A program made the translations under genes and the position numbers. A stretch of DNA of 44,614 bases. Origin: an uncultured Bacteroidales bacterium. Lineage in GTDB: Bacteria > Bacteroidota > Bacteroidia > Bacteroidales > Bacteroidaceae. This document shows, one piece after another, positions 32,156 through 41,906 of the stretch; within the stretch, counting starts at the first letter, position 1, and every line of letters starts with the position of its first letter. Where the stretch lies: assembly GCA_902774275.1 (NCBI GenBank), contig CACYHN010000009.1:1-44614 (forward strand), in the 5' to 3' direction. Below the pieces are notes generated by a model. The model ran no database searches, was not told where the DNA came from, and was given only the letters and a program-made list of their open reading frames with translations.

Positions 32156-33064
32156 ATGAATAGATTCAGCATAAAGGACTTGATCAGTATGCCTCAAAAT
32201 GAACCGGAGGCAATATATAAAGACCAGATTGTCGTGATCAACGCCAACCTTCATGGAATAGCAACCGTTCAGGACCTGTTTGCTATAGATGCTTTTGCCA
32301 TAGGTTATATTCTGGAGGGATATAGCATTACCGAATTCAACAATGACCAATACAGGTTGGAACCCGGAAAGGTCTTCATTCTTGCCCCTACTCACACATG
32401 CCGTCTGGTAGAGTGCAGCAAGGATTACAAGGTACGCCTTTTGCTTCTTGACTCCAACGGCCACAACCTATCTGTCCATCTCAATTATCTGGTAAAGTCT
32501 GAAAGATGGATACAGACCTATTTCCACCCTGTACTCAAACTCAATGAGGACGAATCAAAGACCATGAATGACTGCATCGACAAGATAGTGGAGCAGACAA
32601 AACGCATAAACTGCCCTAACCGCGTAGCTTTCCTAAGGCTTGCCACCACCTGGCATCATGTGGAACTGGACAACATCATGCAAGAGCATATGAATGAGGT
32701 GACTGATAACAACAAGCCCCTTACCAGGCAACAGGCTTTGGCCAGACAGCTATACCGTCTGATAATAAACAACTACCGCACAAAGCATCAGGTCAAGTTC
32801 TATTCAGAGCAGATGTGCCTTACGCCACAATATCTGAACCAGATAGCAAGCAACATTTTTGGAAAGACACTGAGCGCAATCATTTCTGACCTGTTGTTCT
32901 CCACCGCCAGATCCATGATACTGGCATCAGAGATGAGCATACAGGAGATTGCTGATGAACTTAGTTTTCCGGATCAGGCTTCATTCAGCAAGTTCATAAA
33001 GAAGACAACAGGAGTAAGCCCCAGCACTCTCCGCAAAATGAATCCTCACAAGGATTCTATCTGA
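32156..33064 (+). CDS. AraC-family transcriptional regulator
   Basis: 302 residues. The N-terminal ~150 residues form a cupin-like sensing domain (YILEGYSITEFNNDQYRLEPGKVFILAP), and the C-terminal ~100 carry two helix-turn-helix units, with VKFYSEQMCLTPQYLNQIAS and SIQEIADELSFPDQASFSKFIKKTTGVSPSTLR matching the AraC signature. Its 3' end overlaps the convergent barrel gene by 8 bases. The target is unknown; its own promoter carries two direct repeats. Confidence 0.92.
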   Translation: MNRFSIKDLISMPQNEPEAIYKDQIVVINANLHGIATVQDLFAIDAFAIGYILEGYSITEFNNDQYRLEPGKVFILAPTHTCRLVECSKDYKVRLLLLDSNGHNLSVHLNYLVKSERWIQTYFHPVLKLNEDESKTMNDCIDKIVEQTKRINCPNRVAFLRLATTWHHVELDNIMQEHMNEVTDNNKPLTRQQALARQLYRLIINNYRTKHQVKFYSEQMCLTPQYLNQIASNIFGKTLSAIISDLLFSTARSMILASEMSIQEIADELSFPDQASFSKFIKKTTGVSPSTLRKMNPHKDSI

Positions 33065-35786
33065 AATCATTGAATCGGTAACTGAACGATATCACGAACA
33101 TGGATGTGTCACCGAACGTGCGGCTCTCACTCCAGTTGGTCCCCGATGCACTTGCCGAGAAACCGCTATAGGACTTGAGTATGTCACGCCAAGTCAGGCT
33201 GAATGTAGCCTGACGCTCCTTAAGGAAGCTGTAATTGGCCGATATGCTCCACAGGCACTCCGAGCGGTTGGCTGACTCCATCTCATAACCGAACGGACGG
33301 TTGTAGTTGATTCTTGTGGATGCGCCGAGTCCGAATGATGACTGATATGAGATGTCCGCACTCGCCGTAATACGCTTACCGCCGTTTGATGTTTCCATGT
33401 AGTCACTCTTGCTGTCATCCATGCTGTAGCCTACATTTCCCCTCAGCACCCAGAAACGGTCGGAATAGGCACTTTCCAGAGTCAGGCTGAGCCTGCTGTA
33501 ATCCGTAGCACTCTTGTTGGCAGCCGCATCGGTAAAACTCTGGACATACGCCACGTTATGACTCAGCGAATGGTTTACGGTAAAGTTCAGGGAAAGGTCG
33601 CGAAACGGATAGGTAAGGAACAGATACTCGCTCATATTCCAACTGCCGTTGATGTTATCGGGCGATGTTATACGGGCGCCAGTCTGCCTATCCATCCTGG
33701 TAAGGGTTGTTATCTGATTTATTGTGGTTCCCCAACTTACACGGGTACGCATCCAGGACTGCAACTGGAACTCCACATTCACGTTATGCGAGAAAGAGTT
33801 CTTGAGGTTGCTGTTTCCCTCACGTATGTTCATAGGGTCACTGTAGTCTGTAACCATGGAAAGCTGCTCTACTCCCGGCAGTCCGTTTGATCCGTTATAA
33901 CCCAATCCTATCTGGCTCTTCTTGAATATCTTGAAACGGAAATTGGCGTTGGCGTTATATCGGATGCCTCTGTAACTGATATGCTCGTCATCCTTACCGG
34001 GTATCTTGTTCAAATTGTCAATAGCCATCAGCACCGGAGCAGCATTGACTGACATATTGATCCTATATACGGAATCAGAGTAGTTGTAATCCACATCGAA
34101 CGAGTTGTTCAGATTGCTGTTGCGCCTCTCATAATAGAGTGAATCCACCTCACTCAAAGTGCCGTCATCATCCATATCCTCATAACTCTGTGTGCTCTTT
34201 CCGTCATCATAAGAGAAGTTGTAGCCAACTCCAAGGTAGCCCGATTCACCCATCCTGCGGTTAAGGCTAACGTTAATCGAGTAATTGTTTGACACTGACG
34301 GGGAATATATCCGATGATCAACCTTGCGGACACTGTCAGTGAACTGGGCAAAACGGCTGTCAGATTTGTTGATGCTGGTATTGTCATTATCGGACCTGCC
34401 CATCCTCATGTTCACATAGAGGTTGTATCTTTCATCCGGGCCGAATGATTTGCCGAATCCGCCGTTAAGGCTATATGTGGTGCCTGTGCCTTCAGACTCA
34501 TTGCTCTGGATGGTGGATCTTATCAGTCCCTCTCCCTCGTTAGATACCGAATCAACCGAGTGGCTGCTGCTGTTGTTCCAGTTCTTGGACAAATCCATGC
34601 TCATATTGTACCAGGTGTTGTCATTGATACGTCCGTTCAGTCCGGCCGAACCGCCCCAGTTGTGCCCGCCGTTGGAGCTTGTGTTCTCGCTGTATGAGTT
34701 CTGAGTGAACTCGGGCATGAACATCTTGTTGAATGACTCGCTCCTGTTCTCATTGTAGTTGTCACCGTAACCCAACTGCGCATTGACCGATACCTTGCCG
34801 AACTCCTTGTCATAATAGATATTACCGTTTGAGTTCTCAGTCTTGAGCTGAGTGGAGTACTCATACGGAATGGTGTTCCTGCTATATGACGCATACAGTT
34901 CAGAGCCACCCTGTTTCCACATTGAGCCATCCACCGATACGCGGTACTTGTCAAAATTCTCGGTGGTACCCAGCTCTACATTGGCAAACAGAGTAAGGTT
35001 CATAGGCTCCTTGGTCTGCATATCCATTACCAGATGATTATCACTCATGCGGTTCAGGGTGTCATCGGGCACCTCATACACCTTGAGGCTCTTGAGCTTG
35101 TCAGTGGGCATGTTGTTGAGGGCTATGCTCATGTCGCGCTTAAAGAACTGGTCTCCGTTAAGTCGTATCTCATTAATGTCGCGCCCCAGATAGGTCATCT
35201 TACCGTCCTCATACTTTAGTCCCGGCAGACGGCGCACCAGGTCCAGCAGAACGCTTCCGGTGGGCATCTCGTATGCATCGGCATTGAAAATGACAGTATC
35301 GCCGCGCTGGTACATGCGCTGCAGCTCGGCCACAATCTCCACCTCCTCGGTGGTAAGGGGATTGCTGCGCAGCACTATTGAGTCAAGCTCAACGGTGTAA
35401 GTGTGGATTCCGCTTTCGCGTTTCATGGGCGGATCTACGATGGTATCCAGCGTCTGCATGCCTAAATAAGAGATTCTTATGCGCAGACGTGTGTCCTTAA
35501 TCCTGTCGCGACGTGACATATAGGTCCAGAAATCGCCGTCCTTATCGGCCATACTTCCGTCGGTGGCAGTTGTGTCACCCATACATTTGACCAGGATATT
35601 GGCACCCTGCAACGGATAGGGATCGGGCTCATAATCATCAACCCCATATACCCTACCTGTTACCTGAAATGACTGTTTTATATAAGTACGCAACATAGAT
35701 TCCACCTCCGGACTGCTCCAGTCCTGCGCACTCACACTAATCGTAAACAGCATCAAAGCTGCCAAAAGGACTCTCTTTAAATTCAT
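33057..35786 (-). CDS. Large outer membrane beta-barrel protein (TonB-receptor-like, OMP_b-brl family)
   Basis: 909 residues with a signal peptide (MNLKRVLLAALMLFTISVSAQ). Residues ~35-135 look like a carboxypeptidase-regulatory-type beta domain; ~150-260 are plug-like (GSVLLDLVRRLPGLKYEDGKM and YLGRDINEIRLNGDQFF, typical of this family); the rest is an Asn/Ser-rich barrel of ~22 strands ending SMFVISFSYRFNDF. No TonB box is obvious. It shares only the convergent 3' ends with the AraC-type gene, so control by that protein is possible but not shown. Substrate unknown. Confidence 0.85.
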   Translation of the reverse strand: MNLKRVLLAALMLFTISVSAQDWSSPEVESMLRTYIKQSFQVTGRVYGVDDYEPDPYPLQGANILVKCMGDTTATDGSMADKDGDFWTYMSRRDRIKDTRLRIRISYLGMQTLDTIVDPPMKRESGIHTYTVELDSIVLRSNPLTTEEVEIVAELQRMYQRGDTVIFNADAYEMPTGSVLLDLVRRLPGLKYEDGKMTYLGRDINEIRLNGDQFFKRDMSIALNNMPTDKLKSLKVYEVPDDTLNRMSDNHLVMDMQTKEPMNLTLFANVELGTTENFDKYRVSVDGSMWKQGGSELYASYSRNTIPYEYSTQLKTENSNGNIYYDKEFGKVSVNAQLGYGDNYNENRSESFNKMFMPEFTQNSYSENTSSNGGHNWGGSAGLNGRINDNTWYNMSMDLSKNWNNSSSHSVDSVSNEGEGLIRSTIQSNESEGTGTTYSLNGGFGKSFGPDERYNLYVNMRMGRSDNDNTSINKSDSRFAQFTDSVRKVDHRIYSPSVSNNYSINVSLNRRMGESGYLGVGYNFSYDDGKSTQSYEDMDDDGTLSEVDSLYYERRNSNLNNSFDVDYNYSDSVYRINMSVNAAPVLMAIDNLNKIPGKDDEHISYRGIRYNANANFRFKIFKKSQIGLGYNGSNGLPGVEQLSMVTDYSDPMNIREGNSNLKNSFSHNVNVEFQLQSWMRTRVSWGTTINQITTLTRMDRQTGARITSPDNINGSWNMSEYLFLTYPFRDLSLNFTVNHSLSHNVAYVQSFTDAAANKSATDYSRLSLTLESAYSDRFWVLRGNVGYSMDDSKSDYMETSNGGKRITASADISYQSSFGLGASTRINYNRPFGYEMESANRSECLWSISANYSFLKERQATFSLTWRDILKSYSGFSASASGTNWSESRTFGDTSMFVISFSYRFNDFR

Positions 35787-35919: not shown

Positions 35920-35948
35920 GTACAAAAGGGGTCTGACCCCAATTGTAC
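35920..35948. repeat. Palindrome of the AATTGGGG family, after the first M56 gene
   Basis: GTACAAAAGGGG / CCCCAATTGTAC (10 of 12 pairs) with a 5-base loop TCTGA, 5 bases past the stop of the M56 gene. Related to 38985-39013 and 43298-43334. Confidence 0.75.
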
Positions 35949-35953
35949 TGTTT

Positions 35954-38461
35954 TTATCTTACATTTTGATAGAAGATGGTTTTATCAGCATATTTTTCTG
36001 ACAATAAAATCCTTATCTGCTGATAGTTGGCAACAGAGAATGGTAACAAGACCGCGTCACGGCGACCTTCAAAGAGGTCTTTAACGGCCGATTCCAGATT
36101 ATCGGGTGTAACAACCACACTTGAATCAGGAATGGCAACCGGCATATCCAGGCAGATGTATGCCCCACTCTTTGATACAGACTGCCAGGCTTCTTTTATC
36201 TTAGGCTGCATACTGCCAATAAGTTCATCGCTTCTATTACGCAAAGATTCCTGGAGTTCCTGATATTTCTGTGTCAGCTTTTGCTGACCGTCAGCCAGTT
36301 CCTTTTCATAGCTGGAACGCATGCTTTCAGTCAACTGCTCCTGCTCTTTCTGATATTCCTCAGTTTTTTTCTTTAAATCATTGTTTAAAGCCTGCATCTC
36401 TTCCTGCATCTTGTTCTGCAAGGATTGCAGTTCTTCTTGGGCCAATCTGTACGCATCAATGAAAGCCCTCATCTCAGGTGTATTCAATTCACCCAGTTCC
36501 TCATGGCTCATGGCAACATTCATCAGGAGTGAGCGTACGTTATCATCGGTCTCATCTTTTGCATTATAGAGGTTTATCCATTCAGGAGTGGGACGCTGAC
36601 TGCTGCCATCAAGCCTGAAAGTGATTGGAACAGAGTACTTTACACGTACTGGTTTTCCCTGTTGCCGACCGGGAGTCCAGGCTGGCATGAGTCCAATGAC
36701 TCTGAGAGCCTCTGCATCAAGTAACGGATGGACAGACTTTACAACCTCCGGCTCGCAGATGTATCCATCCTTGTTGATTATGAATGTGACGATTACTCTT
36801 CCCTGAATAGAACTGTCCTTGCACTCTGAAGGATATTTGATGTTTTTTCTAAGGAACTGCAGTAATTCGGCCGTACCGCCGGGGAACTCCGGCTGCTCTT
36901 CAACAACCATTGCCGGTTCGTCATCTGATCCTGTGTTAAGCTTTTTAATGCTTATCGGGCCATTGGCAATAGGTCTCTGATTCTCACCATACTCCGGATG
37001 TGAGATTGTAAGAACATCATCGGGATTTACAATGCGCATGCTGAATTTGCCTTCATTGTCGGTGAGAGCATGTGAAACGATACGGTTTTCTGCATCCTTC
37101 TCAATCACATTGGCCATCATTATGGTTACTCCGGTTTCAGCGTCTGCCACAAATCCGTGAATCACATCACCGGCCTTTACGGTCTGGGGTGCAACCGTGG
37201 ATTTTAGTTCATTGGGTTCATTGACTTTATCAGGCTGCTTCCGGCTGCTCTGAAGTGTGATTGTCAAATCAGATGAAGGACTCTCATAACTGACCTTTAT
37301 AGGATCGTAACCTTGTTTGGAAACCGTAACAAGTTCTCCCTTACCGGTAGAATAGGCAAATTCGCCATTTCTGTCAGAGCTGCATTTTACAAGAGCGGCA
37401 AGCCCGGAGACATTGGATATTACAGTGAATTCAGCCGATGCAATCGGATTGCCTTTTTCATCAACCACCTTTCCGCTTACCTGGAATGTGGTGTTGTCAA
37501 CAGTCTCTTCCTCATCAATTTCATTTGATGCAGGAACACTCAATACATTGTCTTGATTTACGGCCTTTTCTGTACGCGCAAACAGGACAGATGTCATTCC
37601 CAACATGGGAACTAGAAGCAGAAGCCACATGAGGCGTCTCTTCCGGGTTTTTGTTTTGTTCATCATAATAATTCTCTTTTTAATGTTAAGGTTAAAGGAG
37701 CTGGCAAGCGCATAGGCCTCTGCGCCGACAGTCCGCATTATCAACAGTTTCTGATAGTCACTGTTACGTATGCCGTAATGATTGATCACTTCATTATCGG
37801 CTTCATATTCATGGACTATCTTTATCTCTTGAAGTACAAGCCAGCACACCGGATTAACAATAGTGCAGGCTAAAAGGAATACAAGGTCAAGTGAATGCAG
37901 CAGCCTTATATGGGCAAACTCATGCCTTAGGCTTGCCCGGCGTGCAAATCCGTTTTCCGCATCGGATATGACGATGTAGTTCATCCAGCTGAACGGGCCG
38001 AATGACTCGTCATGCGTAACCAGCCATACCGTACGGCTTATGCGGCGGCGGTTTTTGCCGCGCAAGAACCGTCTTGCCCTGATGATACTGCGTGACCAGC
38101 CCAACAGGAGCATCAGTACATAAGCAGAATACATGCATACCAGTATCACTGCCCACATACTGTGCCCTGCAGGCTCAGAGGTCTCTACCGCCATCATCTG
38201 CGGCTCACCTATCAGGATAAAGGTGTCGGACAACTCCTGAGCAAACTCCATACGCTCAATGGTCATCTCGCCCATTACGGGAGTTCTTTCAGGAATGGTA
38301 ATGTGCAATAAGGGGAGAAGTGCCGAGAGCACCGTTGCTCCTAACAGGTAGAAGCGGTTGAAACGGCAGAACGTAGTTCCGCTGAATGCCACTTTATAGA
38401 TGGTAAGCAGAACTATCAGGGCAAAAGCCCATTCCATTATGTAAAGAACTATACTACCCAT
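35954..38461 (-). CDS. M56-family (BlaR1-like) sensor protease with carboxypeptidase-regulatory and TonB C-terminal domains
   Basis: 835 residues. Residues 1-300: membrane helices at ~5-25, 36-55, 102-122, ~190-210 and 278-295 around an M56 protease with the zinc motif HEFAH (180-184) and the downstream HEYEAD (217-222). After the last helix the periplasmic part has two carboxypeptidase-regulatory-like beta domains (~327-403 and 433-506), a TonB-C domain (~524-617: PEFPGGTAELLQFLRKNIKYP, VIVTFIINKDGYI), a coiled coil (~655-740) and an end domain (~785-835) shared with the second M56 protein. By analogy with BlaR1, a periplasmic signal would trigger cleavage of the BlaI repressor encoded 5 bases upstream. 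Confidence 0.87.
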   Translation of the reverse strand: MGSIVLYIMEWAFALIVLLTIYKVAFSGTTFCRFNRFYLLGATVLSALLPLLHITIPERTPVMGEMTIERMEFAQELSDTFILIGEPQMMAVETSEPAGHSMWAVILVCMYSAYVLMLLLGWSRSIIRARRFLRGKNRRRISRTVWLVTHDESFGPFSWMNYIVISDAENGFARRASLRHEFAHIRLLHSLDLVFLLACTIVNPVCWLVLQEIKIVHEYEADNEVINHYGIRNSDYQKLLIMRTVGAEAYALASSFNLNIKKRIIMMNKTKTRKRRLMWLLLLVPMLGMTSVLFARTEKAVNQDNVLSVPASNEIDEEETVDNTTFQVSGKVVDEKGNPIASAEFTVISNVSGLAALVKCSSDRNGEFAYSTGKGELVTVSKQGYDPIKVSYESPSSDLTITLQSSRKQPDKVNEPNELKSTVAPQTVKAGDVIHGFVADAETGVTIMMANVIEKDAENRIVSHALTDNEGKFSMRIVNPDDVLTISHPEYGENQRPIANGPISIKKLNTGSDDEPAMVVEEQPEFPGGTAELLQFLRKNIKYPSECKDSSIQGRVIVTFIINKDGYICEPEVVKSVHPLLDAEALRVIGLMPAWTPGRQQGKPVRVKYSVPITFRLDGSSQRPTPEWINLYNAKDETDDNVRSLLMNVAMSHEELGELNTPEMRAFIDAYRLAQEELQSLQNKMQEEMQALNNDLKKKTEEYQKEQEQLTESMRSSYEKELADGQQKLTQKYQELQESLRNRSDELIGSMQPKIKEAWQSVSKSGAYICLDMPVAIPDSSVVVTPDNLESAVKDLFEGRRDAVLLPFSVANYQQIRILLSEKYADKTIFYQNVR

Positions 38462-38466
38462 GATTT

Positions 38467-38829
38467 TTACTTTGCGTTTTCAGCCATTCGGATAAGATCC
38501 TTGAGGTCGTCAATACTTACCTCCTCCTGCTGCACAAGGCAGGATATGAAATCCTTGTATGAGCCGTTGAAGAACCGGGACACACTCTCCTTGTTCATCA
38601 ACTCAACGTATTTGTCACGGCTTACGGCAGGCTCATACAGGAAGAACCGGGCTCCAAGCTCCTGATGCTTTATCATTCCGCTTACCTCCAGACGGCGCAC
38701 AAACGTGGTCAGCGTATTGAAGTTGGGCCGGGGCTCGGGCATGCGTTCCAAAAGATCTCTCATGGACAGCGCTCCGTTATCCCAGAGCACGTTCATGATT
38801 GCAAGTTCCTTATCGGTCAGTTTTTTCAT
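38467..38829 (-). CDS. BlaI/MecI-family transcriptional repressor
   Basis: 120 residues, usual length. Winged-helix N-terminal half (KKLTDKELAIMNVLWDNGALSMRDLLERM, TLTTFVRRLEVSGMIKHQELG) and a helical dimerisation tail ending in DLKDLIRMAEN. Very close to the second BlaI copy at 41474-41836. In the family it binds TACA...TGTA palindromes and is removed by the partner M56 protease; such a site sits in its own promoter (38871-38883). Followed by the M56 gene with a 5-base gap. Confidence 0.93.
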   Translation of the reverse strand: MKKLTDKELAIMNVLWDNGALSMRDLLERMPEPRPNFNTLTTFVRRLEVSGMIKHQELGARFFLYEPAVSRDKYVELMNKESVSRFFNGSYKDFISCLVQQEEVSIDDLKDLIRMAENAK

Positions 38830-38862: not shown

Positions 38863-38894
38863 CAAATAAATTACATTTTGTAAAAACAACCAAA
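38863..38894 (-). promoter_or_regulatory. Promoter of the first blaI operon with built-in palindromic operator
   Basis: Minus strand: TTTG (38894-38891), 20 bases, TTTATTTG (38870-38863; one mismatch to TAnnTTTG). The spacer contains TTACATTTTGTAA (38871-38883), a TACA-N3-TGTA palindrome like BlaI operators. Same plan and spacing as at 41875-41906. Confidence 0.75.
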
Positions 38895-38947
38895 CATTTT
38901 GACAATTATTTGTACTTTCGTTGTAAAAATAAACATACAGCACAAAA

Positions 38948-38977
38948 AAAGAGGGCGGATAAAAGTCCGCCCTCTTT
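38948..38977 (-). terminator. Terminator of the second M56 gene
   Basis: 12-bp stem AAAGAGGGCGGA / TCCGCCCTCTTT, 6-base loop, followed on the minus strand by T7. It separates the two blaI operons. Confidence 0.85.
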
Positions 38978-38984
38978 CGCAAAT

Positions 38985-39013
38985 GTGCAATTGGGGTCAG
39001 GCCCCAATTGCAC
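38985..39013. repeat. Perfect AATTGGGG palindrome at the end of the second M56 gene
   Basis: GTGCAATTGGGG (38985-38996) with CCCCAATTGCAC (39002-39013) and loop TCAGG. Its last base belongs to the stop codon of the M56 gene. Confidence 0.85.
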
Positions 39014-41472
39014 TATAACCTCCAGTTTACCTTCTTGTCCGGATACTTTGTGATGGTTTTTCGGAGCTTTTTGTAGTTATCCTCTGAATACGGAATAACA
39101 AAATAACGTCTTTTGCCTGTAAACAGATCCCTGACAGCTTTTTCCAGATTCTCCACCGGATCCGCGTCTTTGAAATCACCTCCGAAACAGTCTACCCCAT
39201 ACTGCTCAGACGCTGTTGACAAAACTTCTACACCTATCCAATCGGATTCTTCAGTACTTGTAGAAACGATCTCATTTATTATTGGACTAGGGTTACGATA
39301 ACTTACATTATGTAATTGTTTTCTTCGGAGTATTTTTTGGACCTCATTCCGTGTCTCTAAGGGTGCATCGGGCCAAACCGTGACAGTCACTACCTGTATG
39401 TCTTCCTTGGTAAGGTCAGGAGCATCCAGATAATCTTCCAGCTCGTTGAGTTCAAAATGACGCGTTTGAGTTCCAAACACATACTCATCATCACCATTCT
39501 CAAGATGACGAACTTTTATTTTTTCCGCACTTATACCTTGAGCCTGGACAAATAAGAGGATCTCATTATAATCGAAAATACCGGTTCCTGTAACAGGCCT
39601 GTAGCCTTCCTGAACGATATTCAAAAGCATCCTGTAGCGGATGGTTTCTTTCAGGTCAATGATTGGTCCCATGGGAACATCGGGATGGATCTCAAGGCGA
39701 ACATATCGGATTTTCATTCCGTCTGATATTGCCTTGTCTATATAATCATTGAGGTCCTCAATACGAATATTTTTATATGAGGTCTCTCTTTTGAAAACAT
39801 CCTGACCGTTATCATTATCAAACAATGCTAAAGAAACGCTTAACCGGGCAGGATTATCATAAACCCTGATACGCAGATCCTTATTGACTTTGTTGGTCTT
39901 TGCCTGTTCGGGATTGGCGGCAGCAGACCTGACTTCTTTTTTCATGAGTTTTCCTTCAGAATCATATGATCTGGGTTGAGCCTCACTTATTTTCATTGCA
40001 TACATGCCACGGGCAAACAGCTGCTGACTATCGGTGCATTGGTCATAATGCTTTCCGAATTTGCTCATACACACTTCATCGCGTACTTCATTATATGCTT
40101 TCTGCAGCTCATACTTTACATCACTCCATACGGCAGATGATGTAGCACGGTCATAATCTAATGAGAATACATGTTTTATTGTAGTCTGAACAGTTCCATA
40201 ACCTTCCATGTCATAATCTTCTATAACAGGGAGCCTGCTGTCATTATCAGGATTCTGAATGAATTGCTTGGCAAGGTCCTTGATTTCATCAATTGTCACT
40301 GTTCTTGCTATCAGTCCGTTTTTTACATATATCTCATTATTCTTATTGATATGTATTGACATGACATTCCTTTGACGAATGATCATTTCATCGGGTTTTC
40401 TATCCTCGTCACTTACCACTTCATCATCTCCTACAACCCTTATGTACTCGGCACGCGTTACAGCATCGGAAAAATCATCAGGTTCAGGTAACCTGAAAGG
40501 CATTTCAACATTACTTTGCGTGAAACGTAATTTATCATCCAGATTTACGGCCTTCTCTGTACGCGCAAACAGGACAGATGTCACTCCCAGCATGGGGACG
40601 AGAAGCAGCAGCCATATGAGGCGACTCTTCCGGGTTTTGTTCTTGTTCATCATAATGATTCGCTTTTTAATGTTAAGATTAAACGAGCTGGCCAGCGCAT
40701 AGGCCTCTGCGCCGACAGCTTTTATCAGTAAAAGTCTCTGATAGTCCTGTTCCTGGACGCCGTAACGGTTGATCACTTCGTCATCGGCCTCATATTCGTG
40801 GACTATCTTTATCTCCTGGAATACCAGCCAGCACACGGGGTTAACTATGGTGCAGGCCAGCAATACAACAAGGTCTATTGAGTGTAAGAGTTTTACGTGC
40901 GAGTATTCGTGACGCAGGCTGGCGCGACGGGCGAATCCGTTCTCGGAGTCCGATATCACTATGTAGTTCATCCAGCTGAACGGGCCGTACTGCTCGCTGT
41001 GGGTGACTAGCCAGACGGTCCGGCTCAGACGGCGGCGGGGTTTTCCGTGCAGGAACCTGCGGGCTCTTATGATTCCGCGCGTCCATCCTATTATAAGTGT
41101 AAGCACATAAATTGTATATGTGCCGATGAGCATGACCGCCCAGAGGCTGGTCTTGCGTTCGGGTTCAGGCGATGGTGTTGCCAGGTCGGGGGCATCGGCC
41201 CACATGGTCTCTGGCTCAGGGGCAAAAGTGAATGTCCCTGACAGCTCCCGGGCAAAATAGGTCTCCTCTATTGAGAGGCCGGCCGCCACGGGAGTGCTGT
41301 CAGAAATAGTCACGTGCACAAGGGGGAGAAGGGCCGAGAGCAACGTGGCTCCCAGCAGGTAAAACCGGTTGAATCGGTGCAGAGTGGTTCCGCTGAAGGC
41401 TGCCTTGTAGATGGCTATCAGCACCAGCAGAGCAAACGCCCACTCTATTATATAAAGGACTATGCTACCCAT
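39013..41472 (-). CDS. M56-family (BlaR1-like) sensor protease with ExbD-like periplasmic domains
   Basis: 819 residues. Residues 1-310 are nearly identical to the first M56 protein, with zinc motif HEYSH (188-192) and HEYEAD (225-230). The region after the last helix is different: residues ~366-500 match the periplasmic part of Bacteroidetes ExbD (MSIHINKNNEIYV, AKQFIQNPDND, HVFSLDYDRATS, YELQKAYNEVRDE, MKISEAQP), and two shorter units at ~566-626 and ~670-728 repeat the ExbD-like plan (LNDYID...VRLEIHPDVP and LEDYLD...VTVTVWPDAP). The C-terminus (~774-819) resembles that of the paralogue. Probably an inner-membrane sensor that cleaves the BlaI encoded just upstream. Confidence 0.87.
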   Translation of the reverse strand: MGSIVLYIIEWAFALLVLIAIYKAAFSGTTLHRFNRFYLLGATLLSALLPLVHVTISDSTPVAAGLSIEETYFARELSGTFTFAPEPETMWADAPDLATPSPEPERKTSLWAVMLIGTYTIYVLTLIIGWTRGIIRARRFLHGKPRRRLSRTVWLVTHSEQYGPFSWMNYIVISDSENGFARRASLRHEYSHVKLLHSIDLVVLLACTIVNPVCWLVFQEIKIVHEYEADDEVINRYGVQEQDYQRLLLIKAVGAEAYALASSFNLNIKKRIIMMNKNKTRKSRLIWLLLLVPMLGVTSVLFARTEKAVNLDDKLRFTQSNVEMPFRLPEPDDFSDAVTRAEYIRVVGDDEVVSDEDRKPDEMIIRQRNVMSIHINKNNEIYVKNGLIARTVTIDEIKDLAKQFIQNPDNDSRLPVIEDYDMEGYGTVQTTIKHVFSLDYDRATSSAVWSDVKYELQKAYNEVRDEVCMSKFGKHYDQCTDSQQLFARGMYAMKISEAQPRSYDSEGKLMKKEVRSAAANPEQAKTNKVNKDLRIRVYDNPARLSVSLALFDNDNGQDVFKRETSYKNIRIEDLNDYIDKAISDGMKIRYVRLEIHPDVPMGPIIDLKETIRYRMLLNIVQEGYRPVTGTGIFDYNEILLFVQAQGISAEKIKVRHLENGDDEYVFGTQTRHFELNELEDYLDAPDLTKEDIQVVTVTVWPDAPLETRNEVQKILRRKQLHNVSYRNPSPIINEIVSTSTEESDWIGVEVLSTASEQYGVDCFGGDFKDADPVENLEKAVRDLFTGKRRYFVIPYSEDNYKKLRKTITKYPDKKVNWRL

Positions 41473-41473
41473 A

Positions 41474-41836
41474 TCACTTCTTCTTTTCTACCATTTTGAT
41501 CAATTCCTTGAGCTCATCAACGCTCACCTCCTGCTGCTCGACCAGACAGGAGATGAACTCCATGTAGGATCCGCCGAAGAAACGGTTCACGCTCTCCTTG
41601 TTGACCATCTCGGCATATTTCTCGCGGCTCACGGCCGGCTCGTAAAGGAAGAATCTGGCACCCAGTTCCCGGTGGGTTATCATGCCGCTGTTCTCCAGAC
41701 GGCGCACAAAAGTTGCCACCGTATTGAAGTGCGGCTGGGGCTCGGGCAGGCGCTCCAGAATATCCCTCATTGACATGGGCTCCCCGTCCCAGAGCACATT
41801 CATAATTGCAATTTCCTTATCGGTCAGTTTTTTCAT
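41474..41836 (-). CDS. BlaI/MecI-family transcriptional repressor (second copy)
   Basis: 120 residues, close paralogue of the repressor at 38467-38829 (KKLTDKEIAIMNVLWDGEPMSMRDILERL; TVATFVRRLENSGMITHRELG). The stop is one base from the ATG of the partner M56 gene. Both copies keep the winged helix intact, so cross-regulation between the two operons is likely. Confidence 0.93.
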   Translation of the reverse strand: MKKLTDKEIAIMNVLWDGEPMSMRDILERLPEPQPHFNTVATFVRRLENSGMITHRELGARFFLYEPAVSREKYAEMVNKESVNRFFGGSYMEFISCLVEQQEVSVDELKELIKMVEKKK

Positions 41837-41874: not shown

Positions 41875-41906
41875 CAAATAAACTACATTTTGTAATTACC
41901 TCCAAA
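41875..41906 (-). promoter_or_regulatory. Promoter of the second blaI operon with built-in palindromic operator
   Basis: Minus strand: TTTG (41906-41903), 20 bases, TTTATTTG (41882-41875). The palindrome TACATTTTGTA (41884-41894) is in the spacer at the same place as in the first operon. Confidence 0.75.

Follow-up and report, generated by a model that had tools for sequence, protein, structure and literature searches.

The stretch analysed here, called the window in its full length of 44,614 nucleotides (nt), is contig CACYHN010000009.1 (positions 1 to 44,614, forward strand; assembly GCA_902774275.1) of an uncultured Bacteroidales bacterium of the Bacteroidaceae. On its minus strand, positions 39013-41472 hold an uninterrupted open reading frame (ORF) of 819 amino acids (aa) with an ATG start, which encodes an M56 protease of the BlaR1 type fused to an ExbD1 periplasmic domain, two remote ExbD2-like units and a C-terminal Tail module (the M56-ExbD protein). 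A BlaI-type repressor gene adjoins it upstream across a gap of one base, in line with the original prediction, made from the sequence alone, of a protease-ExbD fusion acting with BlaI. This operon and its modules are arranged as follows:

41875..41895, minus strand: operator TTACAAAATGTAGTTTATTTG of the BlaI-1/M56-ExbD operon, 59 nt before BlaI
41474..41836, minus strand: BlaI-type repressor 1, 120 aa (PF03965, E 8.1e-25)
40537..41472, minus strand: M56 core, residues 1-312 (PF05569, 30.7 bits; hydropathy; identity to the paralogue)
40897..40911, minus strand: zinc motif HEYSH, residues 188-192
39955..40410, minus strand: captured ExbD1 periplasmic domain, residues 355-506 (BLASTP, profile, tree)
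39607..39876, minus strand: ExbD2-like unit 1, residues 533-622 (profile matches, hhalign, fold)
39292..39564, minus strand: ExbD2-like unit 2, residues 637-727 (profile matches, hhalign)
39016..39255, minus strand: C-terminal Tail module, residues 740-819, also present in the paralogue
38944..38974, minus strand: terminator-like hairpin 3' of the M56-ExbD gene (by-eye reading)

The predicted fusion was borne out by the ExbD1 module. In BLASTP, residues 355-506 share 74 of 153 positions (48%, E 1e-48) with the ExbD1 of the same genome (P0002, 199 aa, contig C2), the second ORF downstream of an exbB-like gene in a Ton operon ordered exbB-exbD1-exbD2, and the module retains the long insert and the C-terminal extension of the free protein. 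In addition, a profile built on 50 free-standing ExbD1s matched the M56-ExbD protein at E 1e-48 and, among the 24 M56 proteins supplied, 21, the best of its decoys (4800 shuffled and 24 reversed sequences) reaching E 0.005. On these comparisons the resemblance to ExbD1 is far from chance, and both chance similarity and a generic M56 tail are ruled out by the BLASTP match and by the profile set against its decoys. The Pfam ExbD model, by which the fusion was to have been checked, did not recover it: PF02472 gave no match in the M56-ExbD protein at E<=1, and at E<=10 it found three places in the genome, the fused domain not among them, the free-standing ExbD1 scoring 55 bits. Because this model did not report the fused domain, M56-ExbD fusions may stay hidden in annotation. 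At E<=1, sequence searches of the PDB found nothing related to P0001 or P0002. The fused domain aligns from ExbD1 residue 47 onwards, past the N-terminal membrane helix that bears the proton-binding Asp (as given in an excerpt of PMC12204202); helix 285-303 of the fusion is devoid of acidic residues and is part of the M56 core that the paralogue shares. Since the ExbD helix is absent, no proton-channel role is expected of the fused ExbD1. Note that the free Ton operon also contains, between its exbB-like gene and exbD1, an apparently membrane-embedded ORF of 165 aa (L002:968-1465).

The M56 core was recognised by PF05569 at E 2.4e-7, its 30.7 bits falling marginally below the 31-bit cut-off, and is 71% identical over 321 residues to that of the paralogue encoded in the second operon of the window. 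Hydrophobic segments lie near residues 3-21, 39-57, 110-128, 199-217 and 285-303 by hydropathy, and HEYSH, which sits between segments 110-128 and 199-217, provides the HEXXH motif of the family; the adjoining repressor provides the partner of BlaR1-type M56 peptidases. Basic stretches stay on the cytoplasmic side of the membrane, a positive-inside rule used for orienting membrane proteins, and since a K/R-rich stretch precedes the last segment (285-303), the C-terminus should be periplasmic. No penicillin-binding sensor domain was found among the Pfam matches at E<=1 in the M56-ExbD protein. The GC content peaks at 0.586 inside the M56 core (interval 40900-41399, compared with 39150-40399) and lies at 0.39-0.43 over the ExbD part, a contrast in keeping with different histories of the two parts, which it does not prove.

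The two shorter ExbD-like units that had been predicted behind this domain are real and homologous to each other in profile searches, with wider bounds (533-622 and 637-727 instead of about 566-626 and 670-728), and by profile they appear related, remotely, to ExbD2 and not to ExbD1. In hhalign, units 1 and 2 aligned with the ExbD2 encoded by the next gene of the Ton operon at 93.8% (E 1.8e-7) and 94.5% (E 7.8e-8), with 22-25% identity, against 0.2% for ExbD1; control profiles aligned with ExbD2 at 0.2-0.8% (TonB_C, CpD and Tail) and 9.4% (ExbD1), and none of 200 column shuffles reached the score of unit 1 (maximum 22 vs 47). We relied on one-way hidden Markov models (HMMs), hhalign and the shuffle control in place of the iterative profile search, which merged the ExbD2 and repeat families. 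The similarity is too remote for ExbD2 to be adopted as a recent capture like ExbD1.

Modelled alone, on an alignment restricted to the two units from members of the family, unit 1 gave a predicted local distance difference test (pLDDT) value of 90.7 and the order b-b-b-b-a-b-a-b. In a Foldseek comparison, a check that had been suggested, unit 1 matched ExbD 8vgc (TM-score 0.58 by query, 0.76 by target) and TolR 5by4 (0.58 and 0.56) with the top TM-scores among the 50 PDB rows listed, though these stood 34th and 21st by E-value, outranked by RNase-H-like and other folds. In this model, unit 1 would adopt an ExbD-like fold. The whole-sensor model was moderate (pLDDT 70.9, predicted TM-score 0.38), and its Foldseek hits, actin-like and other chains at TM about 0.1, were uninformative for tandem small alpha/beta units; a search of unit 1 against viral models gave mostly RNase-H-like proteins and no pointer to a viral source. 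The Tail shares 19 of 46 residues with that of the paralogue (E 6e-8); its strand/helix order in the model is similar, but hhalign values of 0.2-0.5% against ExbD1, ExbD2 and the units led us to reject it as a further ExbD unit. The remoteness of the ExbD2-like units, which an ExbD2-only HMM misses, could mean that the ExbD fold is merely a ready-made scaffold or dimerisation element in the sensing of an unrelated ligand, which we regard as extremely improbable, since the ExbD1 module keeps 48% identity, the long insert and the C-terminal extension, and its ratio of nonsynonymous to synonymous substitution rates (dN/dS) is below 1.

A second operon of the same kind lies downstream:

38863..38883, minus strand: operator TTACAAAATGTAATTTATTTG of the second operon, 54 nt before BlaI
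38467..38829, minus strand: BlaI-type repressor 2 (PF03965, E 4.5e-24)
35954..38461, minus strand: paralogous M56 receptor P0005, 835 aa
36611..36844, minus strand: TonB C-terminal domain (TonB_C) of the paralogue, residues 540-617 (PF03544, E 1.3e-17)

The two repressors are identical at 89 of 120 residues, and the paralogue is composed of M56, two CarboxypepD_reg-like (CpD) domains, TonB_C, an OmpH-like coiled coil and the Tail. Upstream of both BlaI genes stands the operator consensus TTACAAnATGTA(G/A)TTTATTTG. Its 13-mer TTACAANATGTAR has exactly two sites in the genome sequence, which is 78% complete, both at BlaI-M56 operons (backward control, one match), so that the expectation of further target genes was rejected for this sequence. 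Across 37 genomes of the genus, the 21-mer operator with at most one mismatch has 42 sites in 26 genomes, never more than two per genome, and all 42 stand 44-84 nt upstream of a BlaI gene; the backward 21-mer had no match in the same genomes. The operator thus appears private to BlaI-M56 pairs and fits autoregulation. Read by eye, a terminator-like hairpin follows each M56 gene, and no further gene comes after either receptor gene within its apparent transcription unit.

That the only operators found precede receptor operons would also suit a receptor that is itself the effector, its abundant mimic domains competing with motor parts and damping TonB-dependent import, for example against harmful cargo; a mimic domain without the ExbD membrane helix could bind without driving. 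However, a pure inhibitor would need neither a zinc protease nor BlaI, and we consider this account quite unlikely.

Just 3' of both M56 genes (35928-35940 and 38993-39005) stands the palindrome GGGGYCWGRCCCC, with 10 sites in the genome and none for the backward pattern; it resembles a repetitive extragenic palindromic (REP)-type element, and similar stretches occur upstream of BlaI in several homologous loci. Behind the terminator-like hairpin that ends the second receptor operon, positions 33057-35786 encode a 909-aa protein that is, by reading only, a probable outer-membrane beta-barrel.

In the survey of the same fusion that had been proposed, 18 of the 37 genus genomes had an ExbD1 domain within an M56 gene or next to one, and the matches listed from outside the genus were all free-standing ExbDs. 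In the order sample (295 genomes, of which 221 matched, our own included; matches listed down to E 8.4e-15) these were frames of 169-337 aa, and in the family sample (121 genomes, 7 from the genus) those listed had 196-214 aa, with a single one of 360 aa; in the phylum sample, where 18 of 395 genomes matched at E<=1e-8, our own included, the free-standing ExbDs outside the genus had 182-214 aa. The named records are metagenome-assembled genomes with titles referring to sheep reticulum, buffalo and yak omasum, and red deer and horse faeces; RUG stands for rumen. The architecture table has 47 M56 rows, 23 of them with ExbD1. Two of the 23 ORFs that hold both M56 and ExbD1 (G015:C6 and G044:C10) end at a contig edge, and ExbD1 occurs without an M56 part in frame in G012:C21 (broken) and G015:C69 (contig end). 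More than half of the fused ORFs (12 of 23) combine ExbD1, ExbD2-like (ExbD2L) and TonB_C modules in one chain, Pfam confirming TonB_C in all five of these that were scanned; as an example, L093 and L097 read M56-ExbD1-ExbD2L-ExbD2L-TonB_C-Tail.

In nine outgroup loci (L164-L172, from eight genomes of sister genera and from G048 of the genus itself), BlaI adjoins M56 and a TACA-N3-TGTA dyad stands beside blaI in four. Because all nine have TonB_C (five also CpD) and none has ExbD, BlaI-M56-TonB_C is the likely ancestral form. Two M56 receptor genes with differing C-terminal modules lie in direct tandem in L107 (G016) and L099 (G050), a plausible substrate for cassette exchange. L101 (G012) has a broken receptor gene with the M56 and ExbD parts in separate frames, and in L112 (G011) the opposite strand bears the remains of a second receptor.

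The origin and exchange of the modules can be read from trees and alignments. In a tree of 74 ExbD1 domains, from which two short matches were dropped and in which the free-standing rows L031 and L033 come from outside the genus, the fused domains, including the broken fused copy L043, form one clade (100/99). This clade has a stem of 0.51 and is nested among the ExbD1s of the genus itself (node 100/94); the tree has long branches among the fused rows, its bootstrap had not settled, and support for the precise sister group is weak (82/51). The simplest reading is a single capture from the genus's own exbD1. The M56-core tree (45 rows, seven without an operator in the stretch examined) likewise has long branches and an unsettled bootstrap; operator type is clustered on it (A-type 3 changes, G-type 5), and ExbD1 presence changes 8 times, at least 5 of them forced by starred branches, against a mean of 15.2 over 500 shuffles, so that it too is clustered beyond the shuffled rows. 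Since ExbD1 is one clade and yet its presence changes so often on the core tree, modules probably move between genes or get lost frequently, with a module content that varies from locus to locus and genome to genome around a persistent core. The clearest case of replacement comes from the comparison with genome G021:

39578..40545, minus strand: 968-bp stretch (ExbD1 and ExbD2L-1) unmatched in the G021 locus (blastn at E 1e-5)

Opposite this stretch G021 has 338 other bases, and its identity to our sequence is 96.2% ahead of BlaI, 95.0% across BlaI and the M56 core, 82% beyond the stretch (unit 2 and Tail) and then 97.3% across the second pair.

By the substitution estimates, the fused ExbD1 module is under purifying selection, with a median dN/dS of 0.31 (28 pairs; 8 of the 23 genes were compared, each with a G-like core). 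The M56 core gave 0.146, and free ExbD1 0.125, the latter from 17 genus genomes with 60 of 136 pairs usable, i.e., other genomes and another divergence than in the fused set. The dS is 0.44 for the module and 0.20 for the core, an excess that separate histories of the two would lead one to expect.

A module replaced between loci that are otherwise 95-97% identical (one 82% block apart), a module content that differs while the core stays, and a dN/dS higher in the modules than in the core would agree with integrated decoys, in which the modules bait attackers or hijackers of the Ton system (bacteriocins, phage), binding triggers the protease and cassette turnover reflects an arms race. However, neutral recombination between duplicated cores could explain the turnover, the median dN/dS is below 1 and neither receptor gene has a following gene in its apparent transcription unit, which makes such decoys very unlikely in our view. 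A broader possibility, rather improbable as well and overlapping with that of a Ton sensor, is a surveillance-receptor family on the integrated-decoy principle, with interchangeable copies of ExbD1, ExbD2-like, TonB_C and CpD domains, the last of the TonB-dependent transporter type; its cassettes would swap between the two autoregulated loci, and whatever engages, jams or hijacks import would engage the receptor.

Altogether, we propose that the M56-ExbD protein may be one of a pair of autoregulated BlaI/M56 receptors that use mimic domains to read the state or the partners of the Ton machine, a reading to which we give an even chance. Because ExbD1 and ExbD2-like modules have joined a TonB_C-bearing receptor, Rosetta-stone evidence points to the Ton machine as the business of this receptor. 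According to excerpts of PMC10771500 and PMC10907165, which concern E. coli and Serratia, two protomers of the ExbD periplasmic domain hold a TonB strand between them, and the domain also binds the glycan of peptidoglycan; an excerpt of PMC12204202 describes the CpD-type domain as the N-terminal extension of many Bacteroidetes TonB-dependent transporters, where a role in contacting TonB is attributed to it. The ExbD1 and ExbD2-like modules would bind the partners of the real proteins, namely the ExbD-binding stretch of TonB, ExbD subunits or peptidoglycan, and their occupancy would show how loaded the Ton motor is or how far it is assembled. Through the last membrane helix, a change in occupancy would reach the M56 protease and lead it to cleave BlaI, which would free both operators and let both operons rise. 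No further operator was found, so the immediate output would be more receptor, that is, a positive-feedback switch, and the effector would be the receptor itself, through its mimic domains or through its protease acting on another substrate. The earlier suggestion of a regulator that reads the Ton system gains from the TonB_C of the sister locus, the three-part chains and the ExbD1 clade; its binding and proteolytic steps stay conjectural.

BlaR1 relatives sense wall-active drugs, and we know of no wall-binder role for TonB_C and CpD, which occur in the same receptors. That several parts of a single machine were recruited speaks for that machine, and it appears unlikely that the ExbD modules bind peptidoglycan only and that the receptor reports wall damage or turnover instead of Ton activity, even though the ExbD periplasmic domain does bind peptidoglycan glycan chains (excerpt of PMC10771500).

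Several points weigh against a Ton-state receptor. Ton-partner binding and signalling are predicted from sequence, and the ExbD1 module may have lost partner binding, since it has diverged (48% identity) and its dN/dS is 0.31 against 0.125 in free ExbD1. The ExbD2 relation of the units is remote: an HMM of free-standing ExbD2s alone misses both units of the M56-ExbD protein at E<=1, and on the units of other family members its best value is 4.9e-4 (best decoy 0.022). The close copy in G021 carries CpD-ExbD2L in place of ExbD1-ExbD2L, and 19 of the 37 genus genomes, many of them incomplete, are without the ExbD fusion, which is therefore not essential to the BlaI-M56 system. Finally, the visible regulon comprises just the two receptor operons, as the available genome sequence holds no further site for the 13-mer operator.

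TonB-dependent import is a main feeding route of gut Bacteroidales, and no receptor that senses how the Ton motor itself is doing is known to us, although no search was aimed at this question. In the open-licence literature, to which the search was confined, no description of an M56-ExbD or M56-TonB receptor was found; what was listed were a genome report judged off-topic and papers on antibiotic resistance. A gene-switching protease with periplasmic ExbD1, ExbD2-like and TonB faces would be a concrete candidate Ton-state receptor with testable binding partners, and the turnover of its cassettes would amount to a natural experiment showing which Ton surfaces are important.

Among known systems, BlaR1/MecR1 with BlaI/MecI share with our locus the M56 membrane protease with HEXXH, the adjacent BlaI-type repressor, the TACA...TGTA dyad before blaI and a sensor placed after the last membrane helix. 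In contrast, the M56-ExbD protein has no Pfam-detected penicillin-binding domain, its sensor being ExbD1 plus ExbD2-like units, and no other operator-bearing gene was found in its 78%-complete genome. With the long-type ExbD1 of Bacteroidales it has in common a periplasmic domain with a long insert and a C-terminal extension (48% identity), whereas the fused module lacks the N-terminal membrane helix of ExbD and does not stand beside exbB. The periplasmic domains of E. coli ExbD and TolR (8vgc and 5by4) resemble the modelled fold of unit 1, with which they share only 12-13% identity. Also close are the Bacteroidales M56-TonB_C receptors (P0005 and L164-L172), a kind of fusion familiar from annotation: the nine outgroup loci differ in carrying TonB_C (9/9) and CpD (5/9) and no ExbD, whereas the kind of core and the BlaI partner are the same, and such a receptor is the likely ancestor of the M56-ExbD locus.

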